Shown here: positions 25,409 through 59,472 of the stretch, piece after piece | Layout of the letters: every line of letters begins with the position of its first letter | Position numbering within the stretch: position 1 is the first letter of the stretch | Notes under the pieces: model-generated | What the model was told of the DNA's origin: nothing | Seen by the model: only the letters and a program-made list of their open reading frames with translations | Databases searched by the model: none | Assembly (NCBI RefSeq): GCF_018860345.1 | Contig: NZ_JAHKPJ010000012.1 | Span: 186,001 to 250,000 of the forward strand | Origin: Psychrosphaera sp. F3M07 | GTDB lineage: Bacteria > Pseudomonadota > Gammaproteobacteria > Enterobacterales > Alteromonadaceae | Direction: 5' to 3' | DNA: 64,000 bases | Program-made: the position numbers and the translations under genes

Positions 25409-25521
25409 AATAACCTTACATTTATATGAAATACTTAAAGTTTTATCCCTAAGTGTCCATTATTATTCAAGTTACATACCAATGACATAGGGATTCCCCC
25501 TACATTTCAACTATTTAACTT

Positions 25522-27466: not shown

Positions 27467-29559
<2,093 letters not shown>

Positions 29560-43098: not shown

Positions 43099-44412
43099 CT
43101 ATTTTAAAGCAGCGAGTTGTTTAATATTTTGCTGTTCTTGTTCAACAAACTTTAACCACTGTGTAGCCATACGTTGAGAACTCGGGATTTCTTTCGCCGA
43201 TTTAAACGCTTCAAGTGCTGAATCAAGTTGTTTAAGGTTCACGTTAGCCATACCTAATGCCAAATATGCATTACCACTATTGTTCAGTTTGCCTCTCGTG
43301 ATTGCTTGTTCTGCATGTTTAATTACCAACTCAGATTTACCTTGTTGTAAATATATCTCAGCTATATTTACATCTGCATTTCCGTCATCGGTTATACTGG
43401 CCAATTGATTAAGCACCGCAATTGCTTTGTCCGCTTCTTTGGCTCCCTGCCAAGACTGGGCTAAAAACTTTAAGTTCTTAGCATTTTTTTCTATTATTTT
43501 TTGCTCTATACCTTGGCTCAATACCTTAGCCGCTTTATAAGGTAATCCATTAAAATAATATATTTGCGATAAAGTCATCAACTCTGATTTTTGCGTCACA
43601 TAACCTTGTTGGTAAGCCGCTTCCATTACCGCGAGCTGTTTATCTTCTTGCTCTAATTCGCCATACATACCTGCAAGTTGCAGCCAATATTCCGGTTTAT
43701 TAAACAAGCGCACCATTTGCTCTAAAATTGCAGTAACTTTTTTATTATCTTTTAACTCAAAATACACAGCACGTTGCAAGATATACCAAGTTTCTTCCGC
43801 TTCAGTTTCTTGCTCCGCAGCTTGCGTGATAACGCTTTCAATATATTTAGCAGCATTTTTATAATCTTTTGATTGATATGATGCTTGCGCTCTTAATACA
43901 TTATTATTTATTGGCGCTAATCCTTGGTTAACTTCATCCCATCGGTCTAAAAATGAAATGGTTTTACCGTAATTCCCACTTGCCATTGACAACTGCGCTA
44001 ACGAAAACAACGTGCCCTTTTCCAATGATTCTGGAATGGGATCTTGTGCCACTACTTGTTCAAACTCCGCAATCGCTTGTTCGGTTTTGCCCGCGTTGTA
44101 ATAAATAAATCCGTAAAAGTTATGCAACATGGCTCGCTCATAACTGTTAAGACTAGAAGACTTAGATTTAACTTGGTCTAAGATATCTAACCCTGCTTGC
44201 ATGTCACCGGCATCAGCAACCTCTTGAGCCCTAGCTAGTTGGCTGTAAACTCTTGCCCCTAACGCTGGCGTGCGTTTACGTTTTTTCTCAACTTTATTTG
44301 TGTCTTCAGATGCCTGTACATAAGACATGTCAATACCAGGCAATACACTGAACAAGCTCGAGGTTAACGTAATGGCACACGCTAATGTGGTACGTATAAA
44401 CAATACTTTCAT
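43099..44412 (-). CDS. TPR-repeat periplasmic protein of the TonB2-type cluster
   Basis: 437 residues with a signal peptide (about 1-34) and tetratricopeptide repeats through most of the protein, for example NFYGFIYYNAGKTEQAIAEF, ALGMANVNLKQLDSALEAF and QASYQSKDYKNAAKYI. Such a TPR gene usually closes the DUF3450-ttpC-exbB-exbD-tonB clusters of Vibrio and Alteromonadales; its precise role is not established. A scaffold or partner for TonB or TtpC in the periplasm is a reasonable inference. It follows tonB by 55 bases and ends just before a terminator. Confidence 0.82.
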   Translation of the reverse strand: MKVLFIRTTLACAITLTSSLFSVLPGIDMSYVQASEDTNKVEKKRKRTPALGARVYSQLARAQEVADAGDMQAGLDILDQVKSKSSSLNSYERAMLHNFYGFIYYNAGKTEQAIAEFEQVVAQDPIPESLEKGTLFSLAQLSMASGNYGKTISFLDRWDEVNQGLAPINNNVLRAQASYQSKDYKNAAKYIESVITQAAEQETEAEETWYILQRAVYFELKDNKKVTAILEQMVRLFNKPEYWLQLAGMYGELEQEDKQLAVMEAAYQQGYVTQKSELMTLSQIYYFNGLPYKAAKVLSQGIEQKIIEKNAKNLKFLAQSWQGAKEADKAIAVLNQLASITDDGNADVNIAEIYLQQGKSELVIKHAEQAITRGKLNNSGNAYLALGMANVNLKQLDSALEAFKSAKEIPSSQRMATQWLKFVEQEQQNIKQLAALK

Positions 44413-44467
44413 GATTAATCCTAACTACTTTTAACCTAATACTTTATTAATAAGAAATAGCGCGTGG

Positions 44468-45106
44468 TTATTTGGCCATTTCAAATGTAATACGGTTTTG
44501 CACACCGGATACTTCCGTAGCGGCACCGTTCACCACTCTCGGTTTATATTTAAATTTAAGTGCTGCATCCATTGCCGCCCTGTCAAATAAACCTTCTGGA
44601 TTGGCTTCGATAACCACTGGATTTTTCACAGCTCCAGTTTTATCAACCATAAATTCGACAATCACATACCCTTCAATACCACGCTGTAACGCACGACGTG
44701 GATAAACCGGTGCAACTTTTACAATTGGCAAATACTCACCATCACTGACATCTAGTGCTAAGCCATTGCCGATTGACGTATTGGCATTTACATTCGCACT
44801 AAAATCAAAACCTGAAGTGTTCGCACTTACTGCATCTGATGCCAACTGAGGCTGAGTCATTTGCGGTGGTGGCTCCTGTGGTTTTGGTGGCTTTTTCGGT
44901 TTACGTTCTTTTTTCTGTACCGTTTCATCTTGTTTTAAACGGATGAAATCTAGTACATTACCTTTAGCTGGGTCAGTTAACGCTGATCCACTGGTTTTGA
45001 TCAACGCTTGCATGCCATATAACAAACCAAGCGTTACCGTACCTGCGAGTGCTAAAGCGATGATGTATCTTTGAAAAACTGGATATTTCTGTTCAGCTAA
45101 ATTCAC
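44468..45106 (-). CDS. tonB: TonB energy-transducing protein
   Basis: 212 residues: N-terminal membrane anchor (YIIALALAGTVTLGLLYGM), a Pro/Lys-rich periplasmic spacer (KERKPKKPPKPQEPPPQ) and the C-terminal TonB fold with the YP motif (YPRRALQRGIEGYVIVEFMV) and final KPRVVNGAATEV segment. It transmits energy from ExbB-ExbD to outer-membrane receptors; the receptor at 52228-54918 is the obvious candidate. TonB2-like short form. The gap to exbD is 14 bases. The operon promoter region carries a Pho-box-like site. Confidence 0.93.
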   Translation of the reverse strand: MNLAEQKYPVFQRYIIALALAGTVTLGLLYGMQALIKTSGSALTDPAKGNVLDFIRLKQDETVQKKERKPKKPPKPQEPPPQMTQPQLASDAVSANTSGFDFSANVNANTSIGNGLALDVSDGEYLPIVKVAPVYPRRALQRGIEGYVIVEFMVDKTGAVKNPVVIEANPEGLFDRAAMDAALKFKYKPRVVNGAATEVSGVQNRITFEMAK

Positions 45107-45120
45107 AATTATACGCCTTT

Positions 45121-45534
45121 TTAATTACCATCATCTGCAGCAATTGATACGTCAAAGACACCTGCCGCACGCGACGCATCCATCACTTTAATTAAGGTAT
45201 CTGTGGTTGATTTTTTATCCGCTTGAATAACGACTGAACCTTGTGGGTTCTCCGCTTTTAAACGTTCAACATTTGCTTGTACCGCACGAATATCCACACG
45301 ACGTTTATTGATCCAAATCTCACCTTTATCCGATATTGCAATTAAGATACTGGCACGTTCTTTTTTAACCGCCGTTGCTGCTTCTGGACGATTAACATCG
45401 ATACCCGCTTCTTTCACAAATGAAGCGGTAACGATAAAAAATATAAGCATGATAAATACAACGTCTAACATTGGCGTTAAGTTGATCTCTTCTTGCTCTT
45501 CTTCTTGTAATAAACTTGCTAATGGCGCTCTCAT
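45121..45534 (-). CDS. exbD: ExbD biopolymer transport protein
   Basis: 137 residues with one membrane helix containing the proton-pathway Asp (LTPMLDVVFIMLIFFIVTASF) and a small periplasmic domain with KKERASILIAISDKGEIWIN. ExbD works with ExbB to couple proton flow to TonB. Length is normal for the family. It lies 36 bases after exbB. Confidence 0.95.
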   Translation of the reverse strand: MRAPLASLLQEEEQEEINLTPMLDVVFIMLIFFIVTASFVKEAGIDVNRPEAATAVKKERASILIAISDKGEIWINKRRVDIRAVQANVERLKAENPQGSVVIQADKKSTTDTLIKVMDASRAAGVFDVSIAADDGN

Positions 45535-45570
45535 AATCTGTTCTCTTATTCTCTGATTAGGCTGGTCAAA

Positions 45571-46104
45571 TTAATGTTGAATATCTAACACTAACTTATC
45601 TTCTAATAATTCAATTTCACGTTTTGATTTACGTTGTAACCATGAATTAGCAAATACTCCTGACAATGCGCCAACCATGCCGGCCATCGTTGGTATCGTT
45701 GCTTTAGACACTCCACTGGCCATTGAACGAGCATTACCACTTCCACTGATTGCCATAACATCAAATACTTCTATCATTCCCGTTACGGTTCCTAACAGTC
45801 CCATTAAAGGACACAGAGCCACTAACGTCGTGATTAGGGTTAAGTTCTTGTTTAAGCGCATTTGCGCTCTTGCTACAAAGGCTTGACGTATTTGCTCTGC
45901 ATTCCAAGACATTCTTTCTGTTCTGGCTTGCCAATTTTTTATTAGTGCCGCGCTTACTTCTTTGTGGCCGTTTAGAGCGTATAAAATACGCTCCAATATC
46001 AACAACCACATTAAGAAAATCATAATGGCAATGGCCGTGAGAACAACACCACCGGTGTCCATGAACTCACGTATGGCCTCTATGGTTTCAGTGAATAAAA
46101 CCAT
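45571..46104 (-). CDS. exbB: ExbB, MotA/TolQ/ExbB proton channel protein
   Basis: 177 residues with three predicted membrane helices: VLTAIAIMIFLMWLLIL; LITTLVALCPLMGLLGTVTGMIEVF, which carries the LGTVTGM signature; and TIPTMAGMVGALSGVFANSWL. With ExbD it forms the proton-driven motor of the TonB complex. It follows ttpC after 10 bases; two ExbB-type proteins side by side is the hallmark of TonB2-type systems. Confidence 0.94.
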   Translation of the reverse strand: MVLFTETIEAIREFMDTGGVVLTAIAIMIFLMWLLILERILYALNGHKEVSAALIKNWQARTERMSWNAEQIRQAFVARAQMRLNKNLTLITTLVALCPLMGLLGTVTGMIEVFDVMAISGSGNARSMASGVSKATIPTMAGMVGALSGVFANSWLQRKSKREIELLEDKLVLDIQH

Positions 46105-46114
46105 GTTATTCCCC

Positions 46115-47545
46115 TTAAGCTACTTGGTTGTTTTTGCTAGCTACTTTCATATTTTGGCGACGCTCTAATTGTTGCTCAGAACGTTCCGCAATAATGCCTG
46201 CACTTTGCTCTTGTAAGATAAGCATGATGTTTTTACTACGCGTATTTAACATGCTTGAAAGTACCACTGTTGGTATCGCTACCACTAAACCTAGTACCGT
46301 TGTCATTAATGCCGTTGAGATGCCTCCAGCCATTAATTTAGGGTCACCTGTACCAAACAAGGTGATTGCTTGGAACGTATTGATCATGCCCGTTACCGTA
46401 CCTAAAAGACCCAGTAGAGGAGCTATCACAGACACAATCTTGATTAGTGTTAGGTTTTTAGTAATCAGTGGCATTTCACGAAGAATCGATTCGCTTAATT
46501 TAAGTTCAAGGGTTTCATAAGCTACGTCAGGGTATTGCTGATTTACTTTTAATACTCGTCCTAGTGGGTTGTTTTCGTTAGGTTCAACTTCTTTTAATTG
46601 GCGTTTTACTTTATGGTTTATGCGTGCAAGTGATACAAAACGTTCTAATGCAATTAAGAAAGCAATCAAACCAACTGCGATGATGATGTAGCCAACCGTG
46701 CCACCTTGGTCGATACGTTCTTCAATATTTGGCGCTTGTACTAATAGGCTTAAAATTGAACCGCCTGTTGGGTCTAGAGCAAAAGGGACTACTTGATCTG
46801 TACTTGCTTGTAAATTTGCCGCACTGTCGTTAAAACGAGAAGCTGGCTGACGTACTAATTCAGATAAGGTTCCTGTCGTCGGATTTAGTTCTAAGTACTG
46901 ACCTTGTGATACCAACGCAAATGCACCAACTCGTACGATTTCTTTGTTTACTTTATTACCATTGGCTTCAACAACATCCGCTTTAAATTTTACCACTTTA
47001 CCTTGTTCAGTCATTTCACGTTGCAGTTCAAACCACACCGTTTCAATTTGCTCAATAGACGCCAGTTTAGAACTGCCACCCATGCTTTGCGCTAATTGTT
47101 CAAAAAACACATCACGACCAGGAAACTGAGCCGATACGTTTGAAGTTTGCATTTTACCTTTAGCATCACCAGACACTTGCTGTAAAACACCAAACAACTC
47201 TTTTAACGAGCCCATTCTTTTATTTAATGCTTCTGATAAATCCGCTAATTGGAATTCGTTTTGTTCAAATTTAGTTTCTAATGTTTCAGACAATTTAAGT
47301 GCGTTATCGCGCGTTGTGGTTGCCTGCTTTAACATGTTGTCTTGTTCAGCACGTTGACGTAAAAACGCTTGCTCACGAGTTTTATTTTCTTGATTTTGCT
47401 GTGTTTTACCGTTTTGTAATTGCGCTAACAATTGGTCTAAATCAAGTGGTTTTTTCTCGTCTGCTGCAAAACTTGGCATTGCAGTAGTTAAAACTAATAA
47501 TAGTGAAGCCGATGTGGTTACTAGGCTTTTCATTAATGCATTCAT
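46115..47545 (-). CDS. ttpC: TtpC-like TonB2-associated MotA/TolQ/ExbB protein
   Basis: 476 residues: signal peptide (SLLLVLTTAMPSFAA), long periplasmic coiled-coil and globular region (25-270), then an ExbB-like module with three membrane helices (GYIIIAVGLIAFLIALERF; IVSVIAPLLGLLGTVTGMINTF; ALMTTVLGLVVAIPTVVLS). This architecture, an ExbB core with a large periplasmic extension, matches TtpC, a fourth protein required by Vibrio TonB2 systems. It follows the DUF3450 gene after 35 bases and precedes exbB by 10. Confidence 0.9.
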   Translation of the reverse strand: MNALMKSLVTTSASLLLVLTTAMPSFAADEKKPLDLDQLLAQLQNGKTQQNQENKTREQAFLRQRAEQDNMLKQATTTRDNALKLSETLETKFEQNEFQLADLSEALNKRMGSLKELFGVLQQVSGDAKGKMQTSNVSAQFPGRDVFFEQLAQSMGGSSKLASIEQIETVWFELQREMTEQGKVVKFKADVVEANGNKVNKEIVRVGAFALVSQGQYLELNPTTGTLSELVRQPASRFNDSAANLQASTDQVVPFALDPTGGSILSLLVQAPNIEERIDQGGTVGYIIIAVGLIAFLIALERFVSLARINHKVKRQLKEVEPNENNPLGRVLKVNQQYPDVAYETLELKLSESILREMPLITKNLTLIKIVSVIAPLLGLLGTVTGMINTFQAITLFGTGDPKLMAGGISTALMTTVLGLVVAIPTVVLSSMLNTRSKNIMLILQEQSAGIIAERSEQQLERRQNMKVASKNNQVA

Positions 47546-47580
47546 CTTTGTTACCTTAAATTCAATATTCTTATTAGCCG

Positions 47581-48375
47581 TTAAAGCCCGGTGTTAGCAG
47601 AAACCAAAACTGGTGCAGGGATTGGCAATGTTAATAAGTCTGGTGCCAATTGTTTTTTCGCCATACGTAAGCCTTTAGTAATGTGCATACGATAATCAGG
47701 GCTTAGTGCTTGAAATGACTTTTGTTCGTTATCCCAACGACCAATTAATGAGCCGTCACGACTTAAATACATAAGTGCTACACGACCAATACGTAAAAAG
47801 TCGACGTCGCGTTCTTGGCCATCTAACTCCAATAAACCTGAGTAAGCTTCGATACTGCGGCCATAATCAACTTCAACTTGGTAAGCTTCCATCACACGTC
47901 TGAATTTTTCAGATACTGCAATGTCGGCTTTATCCATCATGGTTTTTAGTGACGTTAAACGTTCTTGACGTTCTGTAGGTAAAAATGGCACATCAAGCGC
48001 AACAAAACTTTCTAAGCCATCAATCATGCGTAACATTAACGGCGTGATTTGACGCTCAATCACCGACACTTGATCTATGTCTTTATTAAGCTGTTCCATC
48101 TCTTCAATTTGGCTATTGATTTGTTTTTGAATCTGGCCGTTATAAATATCTAAACCTGCCGTTTCTTTTTCCATCGCTCTAAATTGCATTAACTTTTCTT
48201 GGACTTGCTCTGCAATTTTGTCGATTTTCTGTTGCGAACTGGCCGCTGAATTGGTTATTTCTGAACTTGCTGAAATTACTTTTTGAATCGCAGCTGAATG
48301 TACAGGTAAAGCGCTAACGCCCATAAGTACAGTGGCAACCGCAGTTGATAATGCTTTTTTAGATATAGTTTTCAT
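47581..48375 (-). CDS. DUF3450 periplasmic coiled-coil protein
   Basis: 264 residues with a signal peptide (LSTAVATVLMGVSALPVHSAA) and a long coiled coil (30-130), then a conserved globular end (GQERDVDFLRIGRVALMYLSRDGSLIG). It belongs to DUF3450, which is found as the first gene of TonB2-type clusters and is not biochemically characterised. A periplasmic partner of TtpC is the usual inference. It is the first gene of the operon, with ribosome site GGGGTG and a Pho-box-like sequence 65 bases upstream. Confidence 0.88.
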   Translation of the reverse strand: MKTISKKALSTAVATVLMGVSALPVHSAAIQKVISASSEITNSAASSQQKIDKIAEQVQEKLMQFRAMEKETAGLDIYNGQIQKQINSQIEEMEQLNKDIDQVSVIERQITPLMLRMIDGLESFVALDVPFLPTERQERLTSLKTMMDKADIAVSEKFRRVMEAYQVEVDYGRSIEAYSGLLELDGQERDVDFLRIGRVALMYLSRDGSLIGRWDNEQKSFQALSPDYRMHITKGLRMAKKQLAPDLLTLPIPAPVLVSANTGL

Positions 48376-48440
48376 GTATTCACCCCATAAGTTAATGAGG
48401 TGATAGTAGAGGATGAATGTGACAATACCGTTTCGGTTAA

Positions 48441-48458
48441 ATGTCAGTTTAATGACAA
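48441..48458 (-). promoter_or_regulatory. Pho box upstream of the TonB operon
   Basis: Minus-strand TTGTCATTAAACTGACAT matches 15 of 18 positions of the E. coli PhoB box CTGTCATAWAWCTGTCAY (aligned by hand). The sequence TATTGT, a possible -10, lies 13 bases further on. Activation of the DUF3450-ttpC-exbB-exbD-tonB-TPR operon under phosphate limitation is inferred. Confidence 0.7.
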
Positions 48459-48473
48459 TGTAATAATTGTTTA

Positions 48474-48510
48474 AATTAGACTTATTAATGGGCGATTAAT
48501 AAGTCTAATT
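48474..48510 (-). terminator. Perfect 16-bp inverted repeat after the chemoreceptor, probable terminator
   Basis: Arms AATTAGACTTATTAAT and ATTAATAAGTCTAATT with a five-base loop start four bases past the chemoreceptor stop. No long T run follows, so efficiency is uncertain. It lies only 15 bases before the Pho box of the next operon and would insulate it. Confidence 0.6.
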
Positions 48511-48513
48511 GGG

Positions 48514-50457
48514 TTATTTAATGGTAAAGGTTTGTGAAATTAGTTGGCCCTGTTCTGCCACAGAACCTTGAACGGTAATCGCCTGTTGGCGAGCATTTTC
48601 CACCATAATATCAACTTGTTGCATTAGGCTAGCGAAGGTCTCAAAATCACTTTGTTGCTCCTTCGCACACTGCATGGTTTGCAAAGACACATCTGATGAT
48701 TTTACCGCTTTTTGTTCTACCAAGTTGGTTGTATCAATTAACGCGGTAGCGAGCACGGTTTGTTGCTCAGCCGCAGATGAAATCTGACTGATATTTGATT
48801 GTAATAATCCACTAAAATTATTTAACTGATCCAGTATTTGGCTAGTATCAAACAAAGAATCCTGAGTTTTAATTGCCAGCTTACGTACTTCGTCAGCCAC
48901 AACTGCAAAACCTCGGCCATGCACTCCTGCCCTTGCTGATTCAATTGCAGCATTTAATGCTAACAAGTTAGTTTGATCAGCAATCGCCTTTAATACATCC
49001 ATCACTTGTTGAACTTTATCTACGCTAGTGACCAACTCTTCTAAGGTGCCACTGCTTAAGTTAATTTTATTGACCGTTTCCAGATTAGCTTGCTGCATTC
49101 GGTTTGCACCTTCACGCCCAGAAACCATAGCTTGTACTGTTTGATTGGCATTTTCTTGTACTTCACCCGCTAAAGTATTTAGCTGCTGATTTATTTGTGA
49201 CAAATTAGATAATACATCTTGTGCTTGTTGCACTTGTTGCTGGGTATTAACTGTCGCATTTGAGATCTGTTGTGTTTCATCTTCTAACGAGTTTAACGCC
49301 TGAGAAACTATGTTCATTTGTTGCGACTTTTTATCATTGTCGCGTTCAGCGTTATCTAATAATTGATTAAAAAATCGAGCGATCTCACCAAACTCGGTAC
49401 TGGCTTTATCATCAATACGTTCAATAGAACCTGCCGTTACTAAATTATGGAACGCGTCACGTAAATATCGTAATGGCGTTAACACCAACCTATACATCAC
49501 TAAGTAATTCATCGCTGAACCAATTAAGAACAATACCAACATAGAGGCTATAATCACCGCCACCTGTGAATACGTTTGATCTCGACTTTCAAAAACCGCC
49601 TGTTCAACGTCATTGGCTAATAACTCTAAACGGTCAATGTCTTGTTTTATTTCAGCAAGGGACGCCGTTTGTTGTTCGATGATGATTGTTGTGTTGGCTA
49701 ATTCTTTTGGATAACGGTTTAATAAACTTTGCAGTTCAGATATTAAGTCTTCGCCTTTATCTGTTTTTTCTTCCTCTTCATCCATAAACAAACCAAAGTC
49801 ATCTTCATCCGTTTCTGCAAACACACCTAGTAGCGGCAAAGATTCTATTTTAGCAGCTAGCTCCTTAGTGTCAGATAATATGTTCATCAAGCTTTGTTTT
49901 GTTGACTCTGACTGAGCACGCATAAAGCTCTGACGTGTATTGGTCAGATCGTATAATTGATATAGGAGTTTTGAAGCGTGACTTAAATATTGTTTAGCGG
50001 CAAATTCATTATTAGTGGCCCCTTCTTCCGCATAACTCACTAAACTGTCAATGCTATCTAATAAGTTACGTTCAGCGTTTTCTAATAACGCTTGTTCATT
50101 ACCACTTAATTTACCCAAAGCTCGGTATTTACCCGACATTTTTAGTTTGAGGCTTTTGAGTTCATCATTGAGGTTTGAGCTAATTTGTTTGTCTATATTA
50201 GCTTCAGCCAACGCATTAAGAATATTATCTACTTGTGTTTCAGCATCACTTAATTTTAATGCATTCCCTGTGACTAGATAACTTTGTACATCTCGGTAAA
50301 GTTTAACCGTAATAGCGTGATAGATGGTTCTGTATTTTGCATAAACTCGATCGGAGTCGGTTAGTTTGATATTGGCCCATACCGTGGAAAGTGTCATCAA
50401 TACGACTGCAGCTAAAATCCCTATCGAGGTAACTTTAACTAAACTTGAAATTCTCAT
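48514..50457 (-). CDS. Methyl-accepting chemotaxis protein under Pho-box control
   Basis: 647-residue chemoreceptor. Helix 1 ([19 protein letters not shown]), a periplasmic region of about 270 residues that looks all-helical with no Cache motif, helix 2 ([22 protein letters not shown]), HAMP, and the standard signalling tip ([29 protein letters not shown]). Around residues 216-243 the periplasmic part has a strongly acidic stretch ([17 protein letters not shown]) that could bind cations. A near-consensus Pho box with a TATACT -10 ten bases after it precedes the gene. A role in moving toward phosphorus sources is inferred from that promoter and from its neighbours; no ligand is known. Confidence 0.9.
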
Positions 50458-50509
50458 CGTCCATTAATCTTAAGTTGTTTCTAAGTTGAGTTGAGTATAT
50501 TTAAGAAAT

Positions 50510-50527
50510 GTGACTGATTTATGACAA
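50510..50527 (-). promoter_or_regulatory. Pho box of the chemoreceptor gene
   Basis: Minus-strand TTGTCATAAATCAGTCAC matches 16 of 18 positions of the PhoB box consensus. TATACT, a near-perfect -10, follows ten bases later, the canonical spacing for PhoB-activated promoters. The chemoreceptor ATG is at 50457. Confidence 0.82.
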
Positions 50528-50530
50528 TAG

Positions 50531-50562
50531 ACCTATGACTGACATTTTTACCAGTCATAGGT
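50531..50562 (-). terminator. Inverted repeat between the DapE-like gene and the chemoreceptor promoter
   Basis: Eleven-base perfect arms ACCTATGACTG and CAGTCATAGGT with a ten-base loop. It lies between the 3' end of the peptidase gene and the Pho box of the next gene. A T-rich tail is lacking on the minus strand, so it is only a probable terminator. Confidence 0.45.
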
Positions 50563-50607
50563 TTTCTATGTCGCGGGGACTTGTGAAGTACCATGTTATT
50601 GCTTGTT

Positions 50608-50653
50608 GCTATTTGCCTGCCATTCGCCGTGCTATTTGCCTGCCATTCGCTGT
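50608..50653. repeat. 23-bp tandem duplication across a stop codon
   Basis: Two adjacent 23-base copies (50608-50630 and 50631-50653) differ at one base. The right copy contains the last codons and stop of the DapE-like gene (RMAGK then TAG). The left copy repeats the same codons and stop just after it. It looks like a recent replication-slippage duplication. Confidence 0.85.
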
Positions 50654-52038
50654 AGCACTTGAACATACTGATGCGTTAAATCAAGTAAGTCTTTTTCTGT
50701 TACGTATTCATTTACTTGATGCACACTATGACTTGGTAATCCAAGCTCAATCACCTGACAACCGCTTTTAGCGATAAAACGACCACCAGAAGTGCCACCA
50801 GCGGTAGACAAACGTGGAAAACGTTTAGTGACATCAAAGATTGCTTGTTCAACTTCCGCCACTAAATCAATGTCTATTGGTAAGGTAACTGTGGTTCGAC
50901 TTTTACCTTCCCCTACACCTACTTCCGTAAATTCATTATTGGCCAAATGGCTGCCATTTATATTTTGTCCGTCTGATATACTTTGACCGACTAAACCGTC
51001 AAGGGAAGTACTCACAACATCAGAGTCGTTCATGCTATTAGCGGTTTCTCCCGATGTATAATAAGGCTCACAAGCACGATACCATCGAATAGAAATATCA
51101 TTAGTTAATTGCTTTAACTGTACCAATCCATTAACAATTCGTTGTTTAATATTGGCTTCCGTTTCTTTATGACTATAACGGATATTAAACGTTAAACGAC
51201 ACTCTCCTGGTATTACATTATCGCCAGCGTCACAGGTTTGTATTCCGGTAATTTCTAAGTGACTGCCTGGAAAATCATCACTACCTTGATCCCAAGACTG
51301 CTGAGTTAACCATTTACCCATCACGACTGCAGTATGGGATGCATTTTTAGCGTTTTGTGGAAACGCAACGTGTCCATGTTTACCAATAATGGTGATTTCA
51401 GCAGAGATAGAACCTCTACGGCCAATTTTTAATACATCACCTGATTGTTCAACACTTGTTGGCTCACCCACTATGCAATAATGCGGTAACTCTTGAGTTT
51501 GAGCTAAACGAGACACTATTTCTTTGGTGCCGTATTCTGCATCACCTAATTCATCACTGGTGATCAAAAAATAAAAGGTAAATTTGTCTAAATCTAATGA
51601 TGACAAAACGTGTTCAAAAGCCGTTAACATTGAGGCTACAGCCCCTTTCATATCGGCAATGCCACGACCTATAAACTTGTCATCTTGTATGGCTAATGAA
51701 AAAGGTTCTGTATGCCATAAGTCTACATTAAGGGCAGGTACCACATCGGTATGACCGCAAAATGCAATCCTAGTTGAGCCTGATCCAATTTTAGCTATAA
51801 GGTTACTGACGCCCTCCACTTCGAAGTCATCAACAGACATGCCTAAACTTTTGAAATAACGTTTTAAGTATTGTTGGCAACCGGCATCATTAGGTGTGGT
51901 CGACGGTCTATGCAAAAGTTGAGTTAAATGCACTTTAATCGCATCAATATCAACTTGATTGATAGATGTATTTAAGCCCATTGTTGAGACGGGTGAAGGG
52001 TTAATTTGAGATCTCATCTTTGTATTTCCAACTTGCAT
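50632..52038 (-). CDS. M20 family metallopeptidase, DapE-like but with altered metal site
   Basis: 468 residues related to succinyl-diaminopimelate desuccinylase. Present: CGHTDVVP (His96, Asp98), GRGIADMKG (Asp129), GEPTS (Glu193), GRRGS, and C-terminal HQVNEYV (His440). Where DapE has EE (general base plus zinc ligand), this protein has Glu163-Leu164 (SDELGD; codon TTA read directly), so one zinc ligand is missing. GGTSDGRFIA reads GGTSGGRFIA. An insertion of about 60 residues (328-390) lies in the catalytic-domain return, and the N-terminus is longer than usual; starts at Met8 or Met20 are possible. It may be a paralogue with another substrate. A Pho-box-like site lies about 95 bases upstream. 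Confidence 0.8.
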   Translation of the reverse strand: MQVGNTKMRSQINPSPVSTMGLNTSINQVDIDAIKVHLTQLLHRPSTTPNDAGCQQYLKRYFKSLGMSVDDFEVEGVSNLIAKIGSGSTRIAFCGHTDVVPALNVDLWHTEPFSLAIQDDKFIGRGIADMKGAVASMLTAFEHVLSSLDLDKFTFYFLITSDELGDAEYGTKEIVSRLAQTQELPHYCIVGEPTSVEQSGDVLKIGRRGSISAEITIIGKHGHVAFPQNAKNASHTAVVMGKWLTQQSWDQGSDDFPGSHLEITGIQTCDAGDNVIPGECRLTFNIRYSHKETEANIKQRIVNGLVQLKQLTNDISIRWYRACEPYYTSGETANSMNDSDVVSTSLDGLVGQSISDGQNINGSHLANNEFTEVGVGEGKSRTTVTLPIDIDLVAEVEQAIFDVTKRFPRLSTAGGTSGGRFIAKSGCQVIELGLPSHSVHQVNEYVTEKDLLDLTHQYVQVLQRMAGK

Positions 52039-52132
52039 AAATTGCCGCTTATTTGTTAGTTACATCACTGTTTACAATGAAGTATTTAATAGTTCAAACA
52101 TGTTAATAAGGTGACAATATTGTTAATTATTA

Positions 52133-52150
52133 ATGACTGAACCGTGACAG
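52133..52150 (-). promoter_or_regulatory. Pho-box-like site upstream of the DapE-like gene
   Basis: Minus-strand CTGTCACGGTTCAGTCAT has two 11-base-spaced half-sites and matches 13 of 18 consensus positions. It is about 95 bases before the ATG at 52038. No good -10 is visible at the canonical distance, so this is the weakest of the single sites. Confidence 0.5.
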
Positions 52151-52167
52151 TTTTAAGAATAAATGGA

Positions 52168-52188
52168 CAAGGGATGTCAAATCCCTTG
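52168..52188. terminator. Hairpin after the TonB-dependent receptor gene
   Basis: Arms CAAGGGAT and ATCCCTTG with a five-base loop, 40 bases past the receptor stop. On the minus strand the tail is only moderately T-rich (TCCATTTATTC). On the plus strand GCCGTTTTT follows. Probably terminates the receptor transcript. Confidence 0.6.
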
Positions 52189-52200
52189 CCGTTTTTATCT

Positions 52201-52233
52201 TTGTCTTAGTTTTGTCTTAGTTCTGTCTTAAAA
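52201..52233. repeat. Three 11-bp direct repeats at the receptor stop codon
   Basis: Plus-strand units TTGTCTTAGTT, TTGTCTTAGTT and CTGTCTTAAAA follow one another without gaps and include the receptor stop codon. The 11-base period and TGTC core resemble Pho half-sites on the opposite strand, but they lie at the end of a gene and face into it, so simple slippage duplication is more likely. Confidence 0.7.
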
Positions 52234-54918
52234 TTCCATTTTATAGCTAACGCTAAAGCCAATGCCTTTGGTGGTTGAACGTAATAGTTCATCGTCAAAG
52301 GTGATCTCTTTTTGCTCGTCTAAAATATTAGTGAGCTTAAATTTAATCTGGCTAGAGAACGTAGGGAAATAAGTGTAATTCACATCTAATGAGTGAAACG
52401 GCTGTTCCATTGCATCTTCAAAACCATCAATACCAGCGATGATCACTCGCTCACCAAATACGTTGTAAACCACGGTAGCTAAATGTTCACCATTTGGTGA
52501 GTCATAACCAAGTTGTAAATTAACCACATATTCTGAATGACCTGTTAAACGACGCTCAAGGTTAGTGATTGAGGTAGATACACCGGTTTGGTCAACAATA
52601 TTTTGTCTATCCAATGTGATTTTTGAATCACTTAAAGTTAAGTTTCCTGACATAAATGAGTTTTGTGCAAATTCACCTAATGCCCCTTTTAACATATTAA
52701 GATCTTGTAAAAACTCAAACTCAATCCCAGTTACGGTTGCCTCTTCACCATTGGCAATACGGATAAGAGGTGGCCCATCTTGCGCAGGTGATTGCACCGC
52801 TTCTATTGGGTTATCTAACGATTTAGTAAACACCCCAACCGATATATTATTACCCGCTGGCATATACCACTCCCAACGTAAATCTAAGTTGGTCATATCT
52901 GTGGTTTTTAACCCTGGTGTGCCTTGCACTGGATATTCAGTTAATGGGTCAATATAGGTTGCAGCCGTGATCTCTCTTAAATCTGGGCGTACGACCGTTT
53001 GTCCAAAACTGGCTCTGAATTGCATTTCATCATTTAACAAATACGTTAACGCCAATGATGGGTACACACCGTCTTCACTGAAAGTTAGCTCTTCGACACT
53101 GGCTTGATCGTTGGTTAAGTCAACTTCACCGGTAAACGGATTATAAGGTAAAGCGGTTTGACTAAAGTCTTCGAAACGCGCCCCGCCCGAAATACGATAC
53201 TTATTATTAATAAAGAAATCAGCTTCAAGATAATACGCATCTATGCTTTGTTCTGCGGTATATAAATCTCCCGCAATGGTGGTGTCGTTTAACACTGAAC
53301 GGTATAGGTTCGCATCCGCTAATTTGTCGTTAGATAATACTTGATTAAGATCGTTACCGTCTAAATCAAATCCACTTGGTAATGCTCGAGTATCTAAATC
53401 AAATCGACGGTTATCTGCTGAACGGGTTTTGTCCACCATGCTCGCGCCTACTTTGAATTCCATTTCTAAACCAGATAAGTAAATAGGCAAAGACGCATTA
53501 AAAGAAAAATGCTCTACGTTATCCACTAAGTCTTGGAAATTAAAACGAGCTGCGGTACGGCCAAGTCTTACCGAAGATTCAGTTTCTGGATCGTAAATAC
53601 CATCTTCATTTCTATCAGATACAACGTAGCTTGTTTCTAAACCACTCGGTGCATAACGGTTAGATTCAGAGTCAGAGTAAATCCAATCTAGTCCTAACAA
53701 ATTTAACGCGGCAAACGTATGTTGACCACTTAACTGTAAAGCGGTTAATGAGCGCTCTTCGTACGTCACTTCTTTACTGTTTATGATGGCGTTATTTTCT
53801 GATGGTGAGACATTGCTTGAGCGGCCAAATTTATTTTTGGCTTTATCTTCTGTGTCATTTAATACGATGTAATTTAGGTTTAGCTCATGGGCTTTGTTGT
53901 AATTTGCCCCTAAGTTGATCATATAAGAAGTTTTAACCATTTGGCTGGTTGTTGTTACATCGTCATATCCACGCACAAACGTGTATTGTTTACCTTCATC
54001 CGTATCAACCGAACTCCACTGCTCTAATTGATACTCTTCTGCAACCTGCCATGAGTTGTCATAAGCAAACGTTGTTAAAAATCCATACTCTAAGTCGCCC
54101 GCGTCAAAAACATCACCATAGGCGATATCAAAACCAACATTAGGGTTAATACTGGAAGTTTTCGGTGTTAAGTCGCGATTTAAGTCAAGCAAACCTTGCA
54201 AGCTGTCTTCTGCCGATATGTAATCTAATGATTGTGATACCTCACCCAAAGGAGACCAATATTGACTTATCGAAGCAGGTGCATCTCTAGTGCCATCGTC
54301 TTTACCCATCCAGTCAGTATCACTGCCCGTTGTGGTTAATCCATCATCGAAGTTATTACTATTGCCACCAATTTTACCGCTGAAGTTAAATACTCGACTA
54401 TCTGGAATGCTCTTTAATCGAATATCCACATTACCACCACCAAAAGCGGCAGGCATTGACGGTGAATATGATTTTTGTACTGCAAGTCCTTCAATGATCT
54501 CTGCTGGGAATAAATCCAAAGGGATAACAGAGCGTGTTGGGTCTGGGCTTGGTACCGCTGCGCCATTTAATTGTGTTGATGAATAACGTTCACCTAAACC
54601 TCGTACGTAAATAAACTTACCATCCACCAAGGTTAAACCAGTCACACGACGTAAAGCGGCGGCAGCATCACCATCACCAGAACGTGAGATTTGCTCAGCA
54701 CCCATAATGTCGGCCACAAAAGCTTGATTTCTTCTTTCTTCAATAACCGCGGCTGCGCTACCTTTTAAGCGAGTGCCTGTGGCGACCACTTCTTCAATAT
54801 AATCTTCAGTTTCTGCTTTTTTATCATCTTCTGCTGCAAACAACGAAACCGGCATTAATGTAGAAATAATCGCAAGTGTCATTGTTGAGAGTTTAAATAT
54901 TGGTGACGATTGGCTCAT
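52228..54918 (-). CDS. TonB-dependent outer-membrane receptor
   Basis: 896 residues: signal peptide (1-28, ending SLFAA), TonB-box-like segment (EEVVATGTRLKG), plug domain (SAAAVIEERRNQAFVADIM; FIYVRGLGERYSSTQLNGA; GGGNVDIRLKSI) and a 22-strand type beta-barrel ending in SYKMEF with the terminal aromatic. The plug type with LGERYSSTQLNGAAVPSPDP is common among Alteromonadales receptors of unknown substrate. A Pho box upstream, together with the neighbouring TonB operon and beta-helix lipoprotein, suggests uptake of a phosphorus-containing compound, but no ligand residues can be read. The start at 54918 has a weak ribosome site (AGGAGT). Confidence 0.92.
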   Translation of the reverse strand: MSQSSPIFKLSTMTLAIISTLMPVSLFAAEDDKKAETEDYIEEVVATGTRLKGSAAAVIEERRNQAFVADIMGAEQISRSGDGDAAAALRRVTGLTLVDGKFIYVRGLGERYSSTQLNGAAVPSPDPTRSVIPLDLFPAEIIEGLAVQKSYSPSMPAAFGGGNVDIRLKSIPDSRVFNFSGKIGGNSNNFDDGLTTTGSDTDWMGKDDGTRDAPASISQYWSPLGEVSQSLDYISAEDSLQGLLDLNRDLTPKTSSINPNVGFDIAYGDVFDAGDLEYGFLTTFAYDNSWQVAEEYQLEQWSSVDTDEGKQYTFVRGYDDVTTTSQMVKTSYMINLGANYNKAHELNLNYIVLNDTEDKAKNKFGRSSNVSPSENNAIINSKEVTYEERSLTALQLSGQHTFAALNLLGLDWIYSDSESNRYAPSGLETSYVVSDRNEDGIYDPETESSVRLGRTAARFNFQDLVDNVEHFSFNASLPIYLSGLEMEFKVGASMVDKTRSADNRRFDLDTRALPSGFDLDGNDLNQVLSNDKLADANLYRSVLNDTTIAGDLYTAEQSIDAYYLEADFFINNKYRISGGARFEDFSQTALPYNPFTGEVDLTNDQASVEELTFSEDGVYPSLALTYLLNDEMQFRASFGQTVVRPDLREITAATYIDPLTEYPVQGTPGLKTTDMTNLDLRWEWYMPAGNNISVGVFTKSLDNPIEAVQSPAQDGPPLIRIANGEEATVTGIEFEFLQDLNMLKGALGEFAQNSFMSGNLTLSDSKITLDRQNIVDQTGVSTSITNLERRLTGHSEYVVNLQLGYDSPNGEHLATVVYNVFGERVIIAGIDGFEDAMEQPFHSLDVNYTYFPTFSSQIKFKLTNILDEQKEITFDDELLRSTTKGIGFSVSYKMEF

Positions 54919-55001
54919 TGGTTACTCCTGAGTCATCAGTAATGTATTAATAATTTTGATGACATATTAGGGGTGGTGTGTGACAGTTTTATTAACCAAT
55001 A

Positions 55002-55019
55002 ATTACAACTTTATGACAA
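55002..55019 (-). promoter_or_regulatory. Pho box of the TonB-dependent receptor
   Basis: Minus-strand TTGTCATAAAGTTGTAAT matches 14 of 18 consensus positions. Continuing in 11-base steps, a further CTGTCAC half-site follows at 54980-54986, so two boxes in the same register may be present. The receptor ATG is 83 bases downstream. Confidence 0.72.
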
Positions 55020-55107
55020 AGTATTTTATCTCTATTTTTAGCATTATTGTTAATCCCCTTTACGTTCACTTGCTTACTAACCTATTGATTTTTAATTTAC
55101 TTTGGGC

Positions 55108-55137
55108 AAAAAAAAGCCGCAAAAAATATATTGCGGC
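55108..55137 (-). terminator. Orphan intrinsic terminator (possible small RNA end)
   Basis: Minus-strand arms GCCGCAA and TTGCGGC with an eight-base loop, followed by T8. It is 160 bases beyond the terminator of the beta-helix gene and has no gene of its own. The 475-base gap between the receptor and the lipoprotein (54919-55393) otherwise holds the receptor promoter and A+T-rich sequence with no convincing reading frame. A short RNA starting somewhere in 55140-55290 would end here. Confidence 0.8.
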
Positions 55138-55300
55138 GAGTACAACAGGACGTCGGAAAAACATGAAAAATTATATTAAAACCAGAGGAGCTTTAATACG
55201 GGATTAGAATAAGTGTTTAATATTTCAAACAGATGTCACAAGTGATTATTTTTCAATTTATATATTTATTTTTCTATAGCTTTAGATAAGTTTTAAACAT

Positions 55301-55330
55301 AAAAAAAACCAGTTACTAGGTAACTGGTTT
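55301..55330 (-). terminator. Terminator of the beta-helix lipoprotein gene
   Basis: Minus-strand arms CCAGTTAC and GTAACTGG with a three-base loop, followed by T8, 64 bases past the stop of the gene at 55394. A textbook intrinsic terminator. Confidence 0.92.
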
Positions 55331-55393
55331 AGTTATTAACTTAAGTGGTTAAGTAAGCGTTATTCGCTAGCACCTAACTCTTAAAGTTTGGGG

Positions 55394-58141
55394 TTAGTCT
55401 AGACCAACAGCCCAACCTTTAGTCCAATCGTTATCCGCATTTTTTACTGCACCGATGAAATCTGTTGTTTCAAAGAATGCACCGTGAAGAGCGTTAGCGT
55501 CAGCAGCTGTTGTTGTATCGATAGTAAAGATACCGTTAACAACTGCAGCCATGTTTGCAGCAACTGAATTGTTGCGACTTGCATCTGACCACCAAGCTGA
55601 TAAATCAACATCGCTGTCACCGTTTTTGAAGTTTTCTGTACAAGCGATTACTGAGTTAGTGATGTTGATACCACCATCTGCTAAGTAGTCTTGACCATTA
55701 GGGTTTGTCGCTTCGCCTTCAACTTCAAGACATTCGCCACCCGCATTAGTAATTAATGCATTCACCATAGTCACTTTAGTACCTTCACGGAAGTAGAAAC
55801 CTTCAGAGTCTTTATCCGCTGATGTGTAGTCATTACCTATCATAGTGATGTTGGCAATAGTTGGGTTTGACACTGGCGTTTTAGACATATCTTTGTCGTT
55901 GTCAGCTTCAATACCACGGTTTGCTTCACCATCTTCAGATGCATGTTTTATTAACACATATTGCATTTTACCGCGGTAACCGTTATCCCAATCAACGCTG
56001 TCATCTTTGTTCGCTGTTAGGACAACATGTTTAACGTTTACTGAACCACCAAAGAACTCAACACCGTCATCTGCATTAGCGTGAACTTGGATGTAATCAA
56101 CCATAGTACCTGAACCAACACCGGCAAACGTAATACCGTTAAGCTCATTATCTGGTGCTACTTCGAAACCTGCATTTTTAACTACAACGTAGTTTAAAGT
56201 ACCTGAATTATCTTCCCAGTTTGTTCCGCCAAATACACCACCAGAGACAACACCCTCAACTTGCAGTGAACATTCACCTTCTGAAGGACATTTGTTTGAA
56301 GGCGCATTGCCTAGAATAACCATGCCACCCCATTGACCTGAACCTTCAGTTTGGTCAAGTACGTCTTGTTTAGAAGTAAACATAATTGGAGCTTCAGAAG
56401 TACCAACCGCTTCAATTTTTGAACCGCGGCTTACAACTAAGTAATCACCACCGTTAGAACCATATACTGTCGTACCGGCGTCAATTGTTAGGATTGCAGA
56501 ATTTTCATTATCACCACCAACAAATACTGGACCATTTAGTGCCCATAAGTTGTCTTTGGTTAATGTTAAGTCTGATGTAATACGACCTGATAATTCACAT
56601 GTTGTTGTAACACCGTCTACTGATTCAATTTTAGCTGAACCTGATGGGCAACCCGCTACTGAAGATACACCGCCACCGAAACCAAATGCCCAACCTTCAC
56701 GCCAGTCATTAGTTTCATCTATGGCTCCAACAAAAGTCGTAGTTTCCAACATGCCCATATTAGCCACATCTTTAACTGCGATTTTGTCATCACCTGTTAT
56801 TGGTGAATCATCGTGTGCTAAAGGTACACCGTTATTGGCTAAAAATGCACTGGTAACCACTGAATTATTTTTGCCATCTTCTGCAACAAATGCAGCTAAA
56901 TCAACTATAGAGTGAGTATCATTCTCAGCCAATTTTCCATCTTTAGTTGGTTCAGTACATGCGATAACTGTGCTTTCCATCACAATGCCGCCATCTTCTA
57001 AATGAGCTTGTGATACAGCGTTACCTTCAACTTCAAAACATTCACCACCAGCGCCCGTAATTACAGAGTTGTAGATGCTAGCTTTTGTACCTTCACGTAA
57101 ATAAATACCTTCAGAGTCTTTATCATCGCTCTTATAGTTATTACCTACAATTGTTAGGTTAGAGATCATGACATCTGACATTGGCGTTTTACTAGGCGTA
57201 GAACCGTCATTGTCAGCTTCTATACCACGGTTTGCTTCACCGTCATTTTTATCATGTTCAACATAAGCATATTGAATTGAACCACGGTAACCGTTATCCC
57301 AATCAATTGAATCATCTTGGTTGCCCGTTAATACTAAATGTTTAACACTTACGGTTCCGCCAAAAAATTCAACACCGTCATCGGCGTTTGCGTGAACTTG
57401 TATGTAATCAACGTCAGTACCAGAACCAACACCACCAAATGTAATACCATTTAACTCATTGTCTGGTGCGATTTCGAATCCAGCGTATTTCACCACAACG
57501 TAGTTTAATGTACCTGAATCATCTTCATCATTGTCGCCACCAAATACAGCACCTTCAAATGCACCTTCAACTTGTAGTGCACAGCTTGTTCCGTCAGTAG
57601 GACATTTATTAGATTTTGCGTTACCTAGGATAACTACACCACCCCATTGACCAGCACCAACCGTGGTACCCATAACGTCATTTTTAGAGGTCATGATAAT
57701 TGGCGCTTCGGCTGTACCTAACGCTTCAATTTTAGAACCACGGCTAACCACTAAATAGTCATTACCGGTTTCACCAAAGATAGTTACGCCTGGGTCTACT
57801 GTTAGAACGGCACTATCTGCGTTGTCGTTACCGATAACAACTGGACCGCGTAATGCGTAAACTTTGTCAGCCGTTAATGTTAAATCTTCTGTAATTACAC
57901 CCGTTAAAATAACGATATCAGCTTCAACTGATGTTGCAGCCAGGTAATCCGCTTCTAACGTTTCTTGGTCTATTTCAATTTGTGTTTTTGGTGCAACGTA
58001 ACCATCACATCCTTCAGGGATAGGTGTTACTGCACATTCATCAACAACCACATCTACTGGGTCTTTATCGTCACTACAAGCCACTGTCATAGTTAACGCT
58101 AGTGTTACTGCCGAAAGTTTGAATAAATCTTTAAGTTCCAT
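55394..58141 (-). CDS. Lipoprotein with two tandem beta-helix domains
   Basis: 915 residues. A lipoprotein signal with Cys22 (LTMTVACSDD; Ser at +2 suggests the outer membrane). Two homologous units of about 400 residues follow (about 82-488 and 520-915). Each has the same landmarks in order: DLTLT, DYLVVSRGSKIEA, GQWGG(V/M)VILGNA, SGTLNYVVVK, APDNELNGITF, VDYIQVHANADDGVEFFGG, DWDNGYRG, GEANRGIEADND, GGEC(F/L)EVEG. The pattern suggests a right-handed beta-helix with many Asp/Asn turns and paired Cys (KCP...C). Function is unknown; such proteins are often encoded beside TonB-dependent receptors. Three Pho boxes in tandem lie upstream. A surface binding or capture role for the receptor's ligand is inferred only. 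Confidence 0.82.
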   Translation of the reverse strand: MELKDLFKLSAVTLALTMTVACSDDKDPVDVVVDECAVTPIPEGCDGYVAPKTQIEIDQETLEADYLAATSVEADIVILTGVITEDLTLTADKVYALRGPVVIGNDNADSAVLTVDPGVTIFGETGNDYLVVSRGSKIEALGTAEAPIIMTSKNDVMGTTVGAGQWGGVVILGNAKSNKCPTDGTSCALQVEGAFEGAVFGGDNDEDDSGTLNYVVVKYAGFEIAPDNELNGITFGGVGSGTDVDYIQVHANADDGVEFFGGTVSVKHLVLTGNQDDSIDWDNGYRGSIQYAYVEHDKNDGEANRGIEADNDGSTPSKTPMSDVMISNLTIVGNNYKSDDKDSEGIYLREGTKASIYNSVITGAGGECFEVEGNAVSQAHLEDGGIVMESTVIACTEPTKDGKLAENDTHSIVDLAAFVAEDGKNNSVVTSAFLANNGVPLAHDDSPITGDDKIAVKDVANMGMLETTTFVGAIDETNDWREGWAFGFGGGVSSVAGCPSGSAKIESVDGVTTTCELSGRITSDLTLTKDNLWALNGPVFVGGDNENSAILTIDAGTTVYGSNGGDYLVVSRGSKIEAVGTSEAPIMFTSKQDVLDQTEGSGQWGGMVILGNAPSNKCPSEGECSLQVEGVVSGGVFGGTNWEDNSGTLNYVVVKNAGFEVAPDNELNGITFAGVGSGTMVDYIQVHANADDGVEFFGGSVNVKHVVLTANKDDSVDWDNGYRGKMQYVLIKHASEDGEANRGIEADNDKDMSKTPVSNPTIANITMIGNDYTSADKDSEGFYFREGTKVTMVNALITNAGGECLEVEGEATNPNGQDYLADGGINITNSVIACTENFKNGDSDVDLSAWWSDASRNNSVAANMAAVVNGIFTIDTTTAADANALHGAFFETTDFIGAVKNADNDWTKGWAVGLD

Positions 58142-58209
58142 TACGTACTCCGAGTACTTTTATAGTTTTTGATTAATTAAATTATCGGAACGTAGATTAA
58201 GGATTAAAA

Positions 58210-58271
58210 ATGACAAAACGGTGACTGTAAAAAGACAGTGAGTTGACAGTTTTATTACATAACGATGACAT
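58210..58271 (-). promoter_or_regulatory. Three tandem Pho boxes (six 11-bp half-sites)
   Basis: Three 18-base boxes at 58254-58271, 58232-58249 and 58210-58227 are spaced exactly 22 bases apart. Reading the minus strand, the 11-base units begin TGTCAT, TGTAAT, TGTCAA, TGTCTT, AGTCAC and TGTCAT. The centre box matches 14 of 18 consensus positions and the outer ones 12 of 18. The gene start is at 58141. The perfect helical register is hard to explain except as a protein-binding array. Confidence 0.78.
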
Positions 58272-59395: not shown

Positions 59396-59472
59396 TGGTC
59401 GGTATGAGAGGATTTGAACCTCCGACCCCTGACACCCCATGACAGTGCGCTACCAAGCTGCGCTACATACCG
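59396..59472 (-). tRNA. tRNA-Pro (anticodon GGG)
   Basis: 77 bases including an encoded CCA. The acceptor arms CGGTATG and CATACCG pair fully; D arm GCGC/GCGC; anticodon loop ATGGGGT gives anticodon GGG; T arm GGAGG-TTCAAAT-CCTCT. The anticodon stem has the same T-T mismatch as E. coli proL, which it closely resembles. The flanks show no integrase or attachment-site duplication. Confidence 0.97.

Follow-up and report, generated by a model that had tools for sequence, protein, structure and literature searches.

A probable PhoB-controlled module for TonB-powered phosphorus import and chemotaxis in Psychrosphaera sp. F3M07

What brings a TonB2-type energiser operon, a chemoreceptor, a DapE-like hydrolase, a TonB-dependent receptor and a beta-helix lipoprotein together on one strand, each behind a PhoB-box-like element? 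The question is raised by a 64,000-nucleotide stretch of Psychrosphaera sp. F3M07 (contig NZ_JAHKPJ010000012.1, positions 186,001 to 250,000), hereafter the window, in which these five units lie side by side. An earlier note, made from the letters alone, had proposed that they form a coherent and little-described phosphate-starvation set. On comparative sequence evidence, we put at roughly 85% the probability that the five units constitute a PhoB-controlled module acquiring phosphorus across the outer membrane. The assignment to a single phosphate-starvation module is supported by phoB-phoR-pstS synteny in relatives, by conserved boxes, by the spacing of -10 elements and by the occurrence of energiser and receptor in the same genomes. 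The host genome measures 3.87 Mb, and the nearest receptor loci carrying organism names are those of Psychrosphaera. Translations and scans against Pfam and NCBIfam recovered all module genes on the minus strand exactly where the earlier note had put them:

43099-44412, minus strand: TPR protein, TtpD-like, last gene of the energiser operon (Pfam TPR families; position as reported for the tonB2 operon of Vibrio vulnificus, PMC6957404)
44468-45106, minus strand: TonB (Pfam TonB_C, 9.5e-20)
45121-45534, minus strand: ExbD (translation and operon position; the gene in the same place is annotated ExbD in Alteromonas macleodii pBGP9)
45571-46104, minus strand: ExbB (operon position; A. macleodii pBGP9 has a gene annotated MotA/TolQ/ExbB in the corresponding place)
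46115-47545, minus strand: TtpC-like large MotA/TolQ/ExbB protein (Pfam MotA_ExbB, 6.9e-29)
47581-48375, minus strand: TtpB-like DUF3450 protein, whose gene opens the energiser operon (PF11932, 1.1e-88)
48419-48458, minus strand: Pho-box array of the energiser operon (best 19-mer at 48440-48458)
48514-50457, minus strand: chemoreceptor with a ligand domain of the helical bimodular (HBM) type (MCPsignal, 5.9e-27; structural model and McpS matches)
50509-50527, minus strand: Pho box of the chemoreceptor gene
50632-52038, minus strand: M20 family DapE-like hydrolase, a divergent second copy (Peptidase_M20, 6.8e-29)
52110-52161, minus strand: phased Pho-box array preceding the M20 gene, weaker than the others (12.5 and 10.1)
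52228-54918, minus strand: TonB-dependent receptor (TonB_dep_Rec_b-barrel, 1.1e-23; Plug, 6.7e-08)
54979-55019, minus strand: double Pho box of the receptor gene (19.3 and 13.8)
55394-58141, minus strand: two-module beta-helix lipoprotein, ElpS-like (Beta_helix, 0.0047; AlphaFold2 model)
58210-58271, minus strand: Pho-box array preceding the lipoprotein gene (top-scoring 19-mer at 58242-58260)

Candidate PhoB sites were scored with a 19-bp matrix learned by expectation maximisation from 59 upstream regions (29 phoB and 30 pstS genes) of 30 genomes and seeded with the Escherichia coli Pho consensus. The module was absent from the training set, upstream regions without a box were retained, and one partially matching phoB locus (L101, genome G005) was excluded beforehand. 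Across both strands of the window, the four highest positions were those of the chemoreceptor (19.9), the receptor (19.3), the lipoprotein (18.1) and the energiser operon (17.6), lying 51, 60, 100 and 64 bases from the respective start codons; rank 5 fell to an intragenic site at 27846 (14.9) and rank 7 to the M20 site (12.5). Four positions scored 16 or more against 0.26 expected from 200 shuffles of the window (maximum 2 per shuffle), the best single position of one such shuffle being 21.3, and once the threshold was lowered to 10 or less the window was no richer than its own shuffles. When each promoter was shuffled separately (2000 times), at most 0.35% of the shuffles reached the observed score at any of the five, so that the outcome named in advance as refuting, scores no better than those of shuffled upstream DNA, did not occur. 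A 400-kb sample of the same genome (799,280 positions) contained no position at or above 17, four at or above 14 and eleven at or above 12. The claim of a PhoB-box-like element upstream of all five units is thus upheld, the weaker M20 element being supported by its phasing, and the hand counts of consensus matches (16 of 18 at the chemoreceptor, 15 of 18 at the tonB operon) proved correct. Plain consensus counting was too weak to decide the matter, since it returned nine genome matches with three or fewer mismatches versus four for the reversed control. Elsewhere in the genome, a good consensus site (L003; G000:C11:33467-33484) precedes the gene for an apparently membrane-bound protein of 308 residues.

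The boxes are built from direct TGTCA repeats in an 11-bp phase. Summed over four phased half-sites, scores reached 27.6 for the lipoprotein (the highest in the window), 26.4 for the receptor, 25.0 for the energiser operon and 21.7 for the M20 gene, all exceeding the background maximum of 15.2 in 798,480 positions; this four-unit score and the TANNNT pattern used below were devised after the window arrays had been seen. The chemoreceptor box is a strong two-unit site whose four-unit score, 9.1, is equalled by 17 background positions. One further phased array (19.2) lies outside the module at 25509 on the minus strand, upstream of 24445-25200, and may be due to chance; by eye, the genes behind it resemble a cellulose synthesis operon.

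Spacing to the -10 element points in the same direction. With two or three half-sites to choose from at each promoter and the distance taken from the final suitable one, a hexamer lies exactly ten bases downstream at the energiser operon (TACTAT, after TGTCAC at 48424-48419), the chemoreceptor (TATACT), the receptor (TAATAT, past a TGTCAC half-site) and the lipoprotein (TAATCT, after TGTCAT at 58215-58210); the canonical spacing that the earlier note had read at the chemoreceptor therefore holds. A TANNNT search of the M20 promoter found no -10-like hexamer at the canonical place. Among relatives, TANNNT stood exactly ten bases past the best box at 53 of 64 sites before lipoprotein genes and 32 of 42 before DUF3450 genes, where the mean count over all 36 distances was 2.5 and 1.7, and at 15 of 35 training genes (mean 1.6). 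The chemoreceptor family gave eight of 28 at ten bases (mean 1.1), with six at seven bases and three each at 21, 23 and 32. This survey dropped sites scoring below 11 or lying too near the sequence end, as well as L317. A general -10 matrix, not fitted here, peaked at exactly ten bases in all four gene sets.

Receptor relatives numbered at least 589, of which the best 80 loci were kept for synteny and box counts; synteny lists omit unmatched open reading frames (ORFs) under 120 residues, gene starts were taken from the longest ORF, scanned regions include 60 bases inside the gene, and the box threshold of 11 is our own choice. Among the listed genes, that of the lipoprotein immediately precedes the receptor gene in 79 loci, the remaining one (L160) having two ORFs in between. 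A PhoB gene occurs in 38 loci, PstS in 24 and DUF3450 in 54, with DUF3450 directly after the receptor in 29; the order phoB-phoR-pstS-lipoprotein-receptor-DUF3450-ttpC-exbB recurs in 19 when unmatched ORFs are ignored, and some loci are also linked to pit, ppk and pstC. The A. macleodii plasmid pBGP9 carries the whole cluster as phoB-phoR-pstS-oxygenase-lipoprotein-receptor followed by six energiser genes, the oxygenase being of the 2OG-Fe(II) kind. Boxes scoring at least 11 precede all 38 phoB genes, 66 of 80 lipoprotein genes and 43 of 54 DUF3450 genes, versus none of the 254 operon-internal ttpC, exbB, exbD, tonB and TPR genes, one of 27 phoR and two of 24 pstS genes (often operon-internal), and 48 of 668 other ORFs; those of the latter that exceeded 14 and were scanned encode a porin, ppk, pstC, a permease and a pstS-type gene. 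A box of its own precedes the receptor gene in two of the 80 loci, both Psychrosphaera, and likewise in the window and in L299; elsewhere the receptor gene comes after that of the lipoprotein, and a common promoter presumably serves both. The sets overlap: some of the 80 loci lie on contigs that were also used in other parts of the analysis (L132 and L300 represent a single contig, and L138 and L160 are further cases), and the 38 phoB genes are partly those of the training set.

Several further features accompany these loci. A 2OG-Fe(II) oxygenase gene (PF13640) stands between pstS and the lipoprotein gene in two Alteromonas loci (L173, L214), and ORFs of oxygenase-like size occupy the same place in two others (L169, L178). 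Boxed genes that appear porin-like by eye lie near the receptor locus in L182, L183, L184 and L202 and in L186-L188, L191, L194 and L196; the one in L182, when scanned, is a Gram-negative porin.

The energiser operon, ordered DUF3450-TtpC-ExbB-ExbD-TonB-TPR, has the TonB2-type arrangement. The six-gene system of V. vulnificus (TtpB2-TtpC2-ExbB2-ExbD2-TonB2-TtpD2), likewise with DUF3450 first and TPR last, is reported to transport iron or siderophores and to be iron-regulated from a putative Fur box (PMC6957404); unlike it, the module operon has Pho boxes and is linked to phosphate loci. Among 61 DUF3450 copies in 30 receptor-bearing genomes, 28 are nearer the window copy, 30 nearer the second copy of the genome and three are distant. 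Boxes of at least 11 precede 23 of the 28 module-type copies, including eight of the ten found over 15 kb away from the receptor or on a different contig, and none of the 30 paralog-type (highest 10.1) or three distant copies. A tree of 58 copies, from which the three distant ones were excluded, separates the two types with branch support of 100/99; group labels were taken from rounded scores (10.9 counted as 11), and L295, a long branch, is placed unsurely. On this phylogeny, the energiser is a lineage separate from the paralog in its own genome. The module type, delimited by a cut placed in the gap between 199 and 243 bits, was present in 29 of 32 receptor-bearing genomes versus none of 28 receptor-less genomes and, within the family of the host, in 29 of 30 with the receptor versus none of six without it; receptor-less G023 has an intermediate DUF3450 copy of 41% identity with two stops.

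The chemoreceptor is Pho-boxed well beyond this cluster. Within the host family, 55 of 147 genomes encode its sensor domain (E 1e-5), and among the best 30 of 56 matches (28 to 100% identity, L316 and L317 having the same site) a box of at least 12.6 was found in 29, the exception scoring 7.3. The other methyl-accepting chemotaxis proteins of the host genome score at most 7.6 (17 of 18, C4 being omitted). In ten genomes whose receptor status is known, the chemoreceptor gene lies within the cluster in four, elsewhere in five, and in one (G032) the receptor is missing. Other boxed chemoreceptors with different N-terminal parts lie near the receptor in Pseudoalteromonas (L140, 8854-10833, dCache) and in Rheinheimera and Alishewanella (L189, 18041-19681; L192; L193), which suggests repeated recruitment of phosphate taxis. 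Chemoreceptors beside the energiser operon of Pseudoalteromonas luteoviolacea and its kin (L200, L203, L207, L209) showed no box at 11.

An AlphaFold2 model of the chemoreceptor, built from an alignment of 28 of the 30 members (L317 and L328 omitted), reached a mean predicted local distance difference test (pLDDT) score of 85 and a predicted TM-score (pTM) of 0.59. Its best PDB matches are four chains of McpS, headed by the HBM domain in 2yfb_B (TM-score 0.74 over the target, E 1.2e-3), followed by TorS, which has also been solved as a TorS-TorT complex; TorT is a periplasmic binding protein. By sequence, Pfam HBM appeared at only 0.035, no HBM match was obtained at 0.01 in 28 family members, and seven sequence-based candidates for solved relatives (E 0.14-0.99) were unrelated coiled or helical proteins, none of which was accepted. 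On the structural model, the ligand domain is of the HBM type. The McpS and TorS matches make sensing mediated by PstS an attractive idea, as in CtpL of Pseudomonas aeruginosa, a chemoreceptor for scarce inorganic phosphate (Pi) reported to act through PstS (PMC4926252). The ligand domain of CtpL (residues 27-324) is of similar size, and the window chemoreceptor may perhaps likewise sense phosphate indirectly through PstS.

As for the lipoprotein, neither Pfam nor NCBIfam assigned it to a family at E 1e-3, and no solved structure matched it by sequence at E 1. Its AlphaFold2 model (mean pLDDT 83, pTM 0.54) is closest to beta-helix enzymes in the PDB, namely PL6 alginate lyases, with low TM-scores. 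A lipobox pattern is present in 76 of its 80 relatives; the window protein carries the invariant cysteine at residue 22 in a T-V-A-C context that falls outside that pattern. Acidic residues are strongly conserved in both of its modules. Lengths in the 80 loci range from 471 to 1401 residues (L141, L166, L190 and others), a spread that would fit proteins with anything from one to three beta-helix modules.

The lipoprotein-receptor pair is, by analogy, of a known kind. In Caulobacter crescentus, ElpS is described as a surface lipoprotein induced by Pi starvation and encoded beside a TonB-dependent receptor (cc0170/cc0171) and a type II secretion system (PMC2996285), and several Caulobacter TonB-dependent receptors are reported as PhoB regulon members (PMC11208175). 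A relative of the window lipoprotein in Indioceanicola (L212) adjoins receptor and type II secretion genes, as in Caulobacter; the module differs in lacking such secretion genes and in having its own TonB2-type energiser, the likeness being one of synteny. In Flavobacterium, Lidbury and colleagues describe Pi-induced lipoproteins with modest ElpS homology beside Pi-induced TonB-dependent transporters, in one case with phoBR (PMC8115612). Their Pus III and Pus IV loci of Flavobacterium johnsoniae, with FI/FII lipoproteins, share with the module a Pi-induced lipoprotein, a fold prediction of the pectate-lyase/polygalacturonase kind, the transporter and, for Pus IV, the phoBR neighbourhood; they belong to a different phylum, the portion of the account describing them mentions no TonB2-type operon, and the authors read them as an organic-phosphorus system. 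The word "little-described" therefore fails for this pair and appears to hold for the rest. As far as our searches show, a dedicated Pho-boxed TonB2-type energiser and the chemoreceptor family are apparently new; the literature searched, which covered few subscription papers, contained no Pho-controlled TonB2-type energiser.

Least secure among the five units is the M20 gene, which qualifies the earlier claim of a coherent phosphate-starvation set, a claim supported by synteny, boxes, -10 spacing and co-occurrence. Its product passes NF009557 (384.9 vs 284) and falls short of TIGR01246 (355.2 vs 361.8), while a stronger DapE copy is encoded elsewhere (C26; 567.7 bits vs 291.5 for the best stretch of the window). 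Across Psychrosphaera its box scores 16.0 in L299 and 11.4 in L160.

Two neighbouring elements upstream of the module were considered and left out. The gene at 58321-59196 has no Pho box in the matrix scan, no Pfam match at 1e-3 and no NCBIfam match at 0.01, and was not counted as part of the module as a solute-binding protein; its product looks solute-binding-like by eye, and a relative of 33% identity adjoins the lipoprotein gene in L164. A tRNA-Pro at 59396-59472 contains box-like letters and was excluded from the box count.

These elements suggest how the module may work. When phosphate becomes scarce, PhoB would bind the phased TGTCA repeats, activation being strongly supported by the promoter sequences. 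The surface lipoprotein, to judge from its lipobox and from ElpS, would capture a phosphorus-bearing substrate, which the TonB-dependent receptor would import, probably powered by the dedicated six-gene TonB2-type motor; that the motor couples directly to this receptor is suggested by protein families and co-occurrence. Pst and other systems would then carry phosphate across the inner membrane. Phosphorus is the probable cargo on the evidence of regulation and neighbouring genes, which do not separate inorganic from organic forms. In Psychrosphaera the HBM-type chemoreceptor would be switched on as well, and may bias swimming up a phosphate gradient.

Several observations weigh against this proposal. 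Boxes fall below 11 upstream of 14 of the 80 lipoprotein genes (-3.9 to 10.8; seven of them Pseudoalteromonas), 11 of the 54 DUF3450 genes (6.7 to 10.3; ten of them Pseudoalteromonas) and five of the 28 module-type DUF3450 copies (10.9, 10.3, 9.2, 5.6 and -1.2, the last a very divergent extra copy in G026), and all these rows are related by descent, so that the counts are not independent. Three of the 32 receptor-bearing genomes have no energiser of the module type, and presumably a different TonB can serve the receptor. In L300, one of four Psychrosphaera genomes inspected, the M20 box is missing, no phosphatase is encoded among the genes of the window module, and Caulobacter cc0171 is reported as constitutive, the data not being given in that account (PMC2996285).

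The alternatives considered keep PhoB control and change the scope or the cargo. It is possible, and the most credible of these departures, that the lipoprotein is itself an enzyme acting extracellularly to release phosphate or fragments that contain phosphorus, with the receptor importing the fragments, which would make the locus a Pus-like organic-phosphorus system. The conserved acidic residues, the association of ElpS secretion with extracellular alkaline phosphatase activity (PMC2996285) and the interpretation given to the Pus loci (PMC8115612) favour this, whereas Pfam and NCBIfam scans found no phosphatase family in the lipoprotein, none occurs in the window module, and the synteny is with pstS, the gene of a Pi-binding protein. 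A narrower arrangement, in which lipoprotein, receptor and energiser alone form the phosphate module and the chemoreceptor and M20 genes are bystanders that acquired boxes through local regulatory spread, seems unlikely to us. It draws on the weakness of the M20 box and its loss in L300, and on the fact that among the 80 loci close relatives of both genes lie in the cluster only in Psychrosphaera, which also qualifies the five-unit proposal; yet chemoreceptors with the same sensor domain are boxed in 29 of 30 cases, and the six unlinked copies, in the ten genomes for which linkage is known, remain boxed (five at 16.4 or more, one at 14.5).

Quite improbable, in our view, is a PhoB-controlled module importing something other than phosphorus that phosphate-starved cells are short of or can use, such as iron or a different metal bound in phosphates, or oligosaccharides that the beta-helix lipoprotein releases. 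Siderophore import is known for TonB2-type systems (PMC6957404), and the best structural matches of the lipoprotein are alginate lyases, at the low TM-scores given above. Against such a cargo stand the repeated linkage to phoB and pstS, joined in some loci by pit, ppk and pstC, and the lack of any above-background Fur-like site at the five promoters. The best matches to the Fur consensus were 11-13 of 19 positions there, 12 at the paralogous operon, where a Fur box was likewise no better than background, and 10-15 in random windows, a crude count of little power.

We return, then, to a PhoB-controlled module acquiring phosphorus as the preferred account of the five units. Phosphate usually crosses the outer membrane through porins. 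A more specific and tentative proposal, to which we give somewhat less than even odds, is that in Alteromonadaceae and their relatives a phosphate-dedicated TonB2-type lineage provides the energy for an ElpS-like catcher and receptor. These would pump Pi, or phosphate bound to calcium or a polymer, through the outer membrane, an active route replacing passive porins, and would be coupled with Pho-controlled HBM chemoreceptors reading the same nutrient. If true, such a powered route, conserved among marine copiotrophs, would shed light on their ability to compete where phosphate is scarce, and TonB2-type systems would gain a role beyond iron. The chemoreceptors would form a family whose regulation hints at its ligand, making marine phosphate taxis testable gene by gene. 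Powered import with its own motor, a surface catcher and a swimming sensor would be combined in one module, where they were known before only as scattered pieces.

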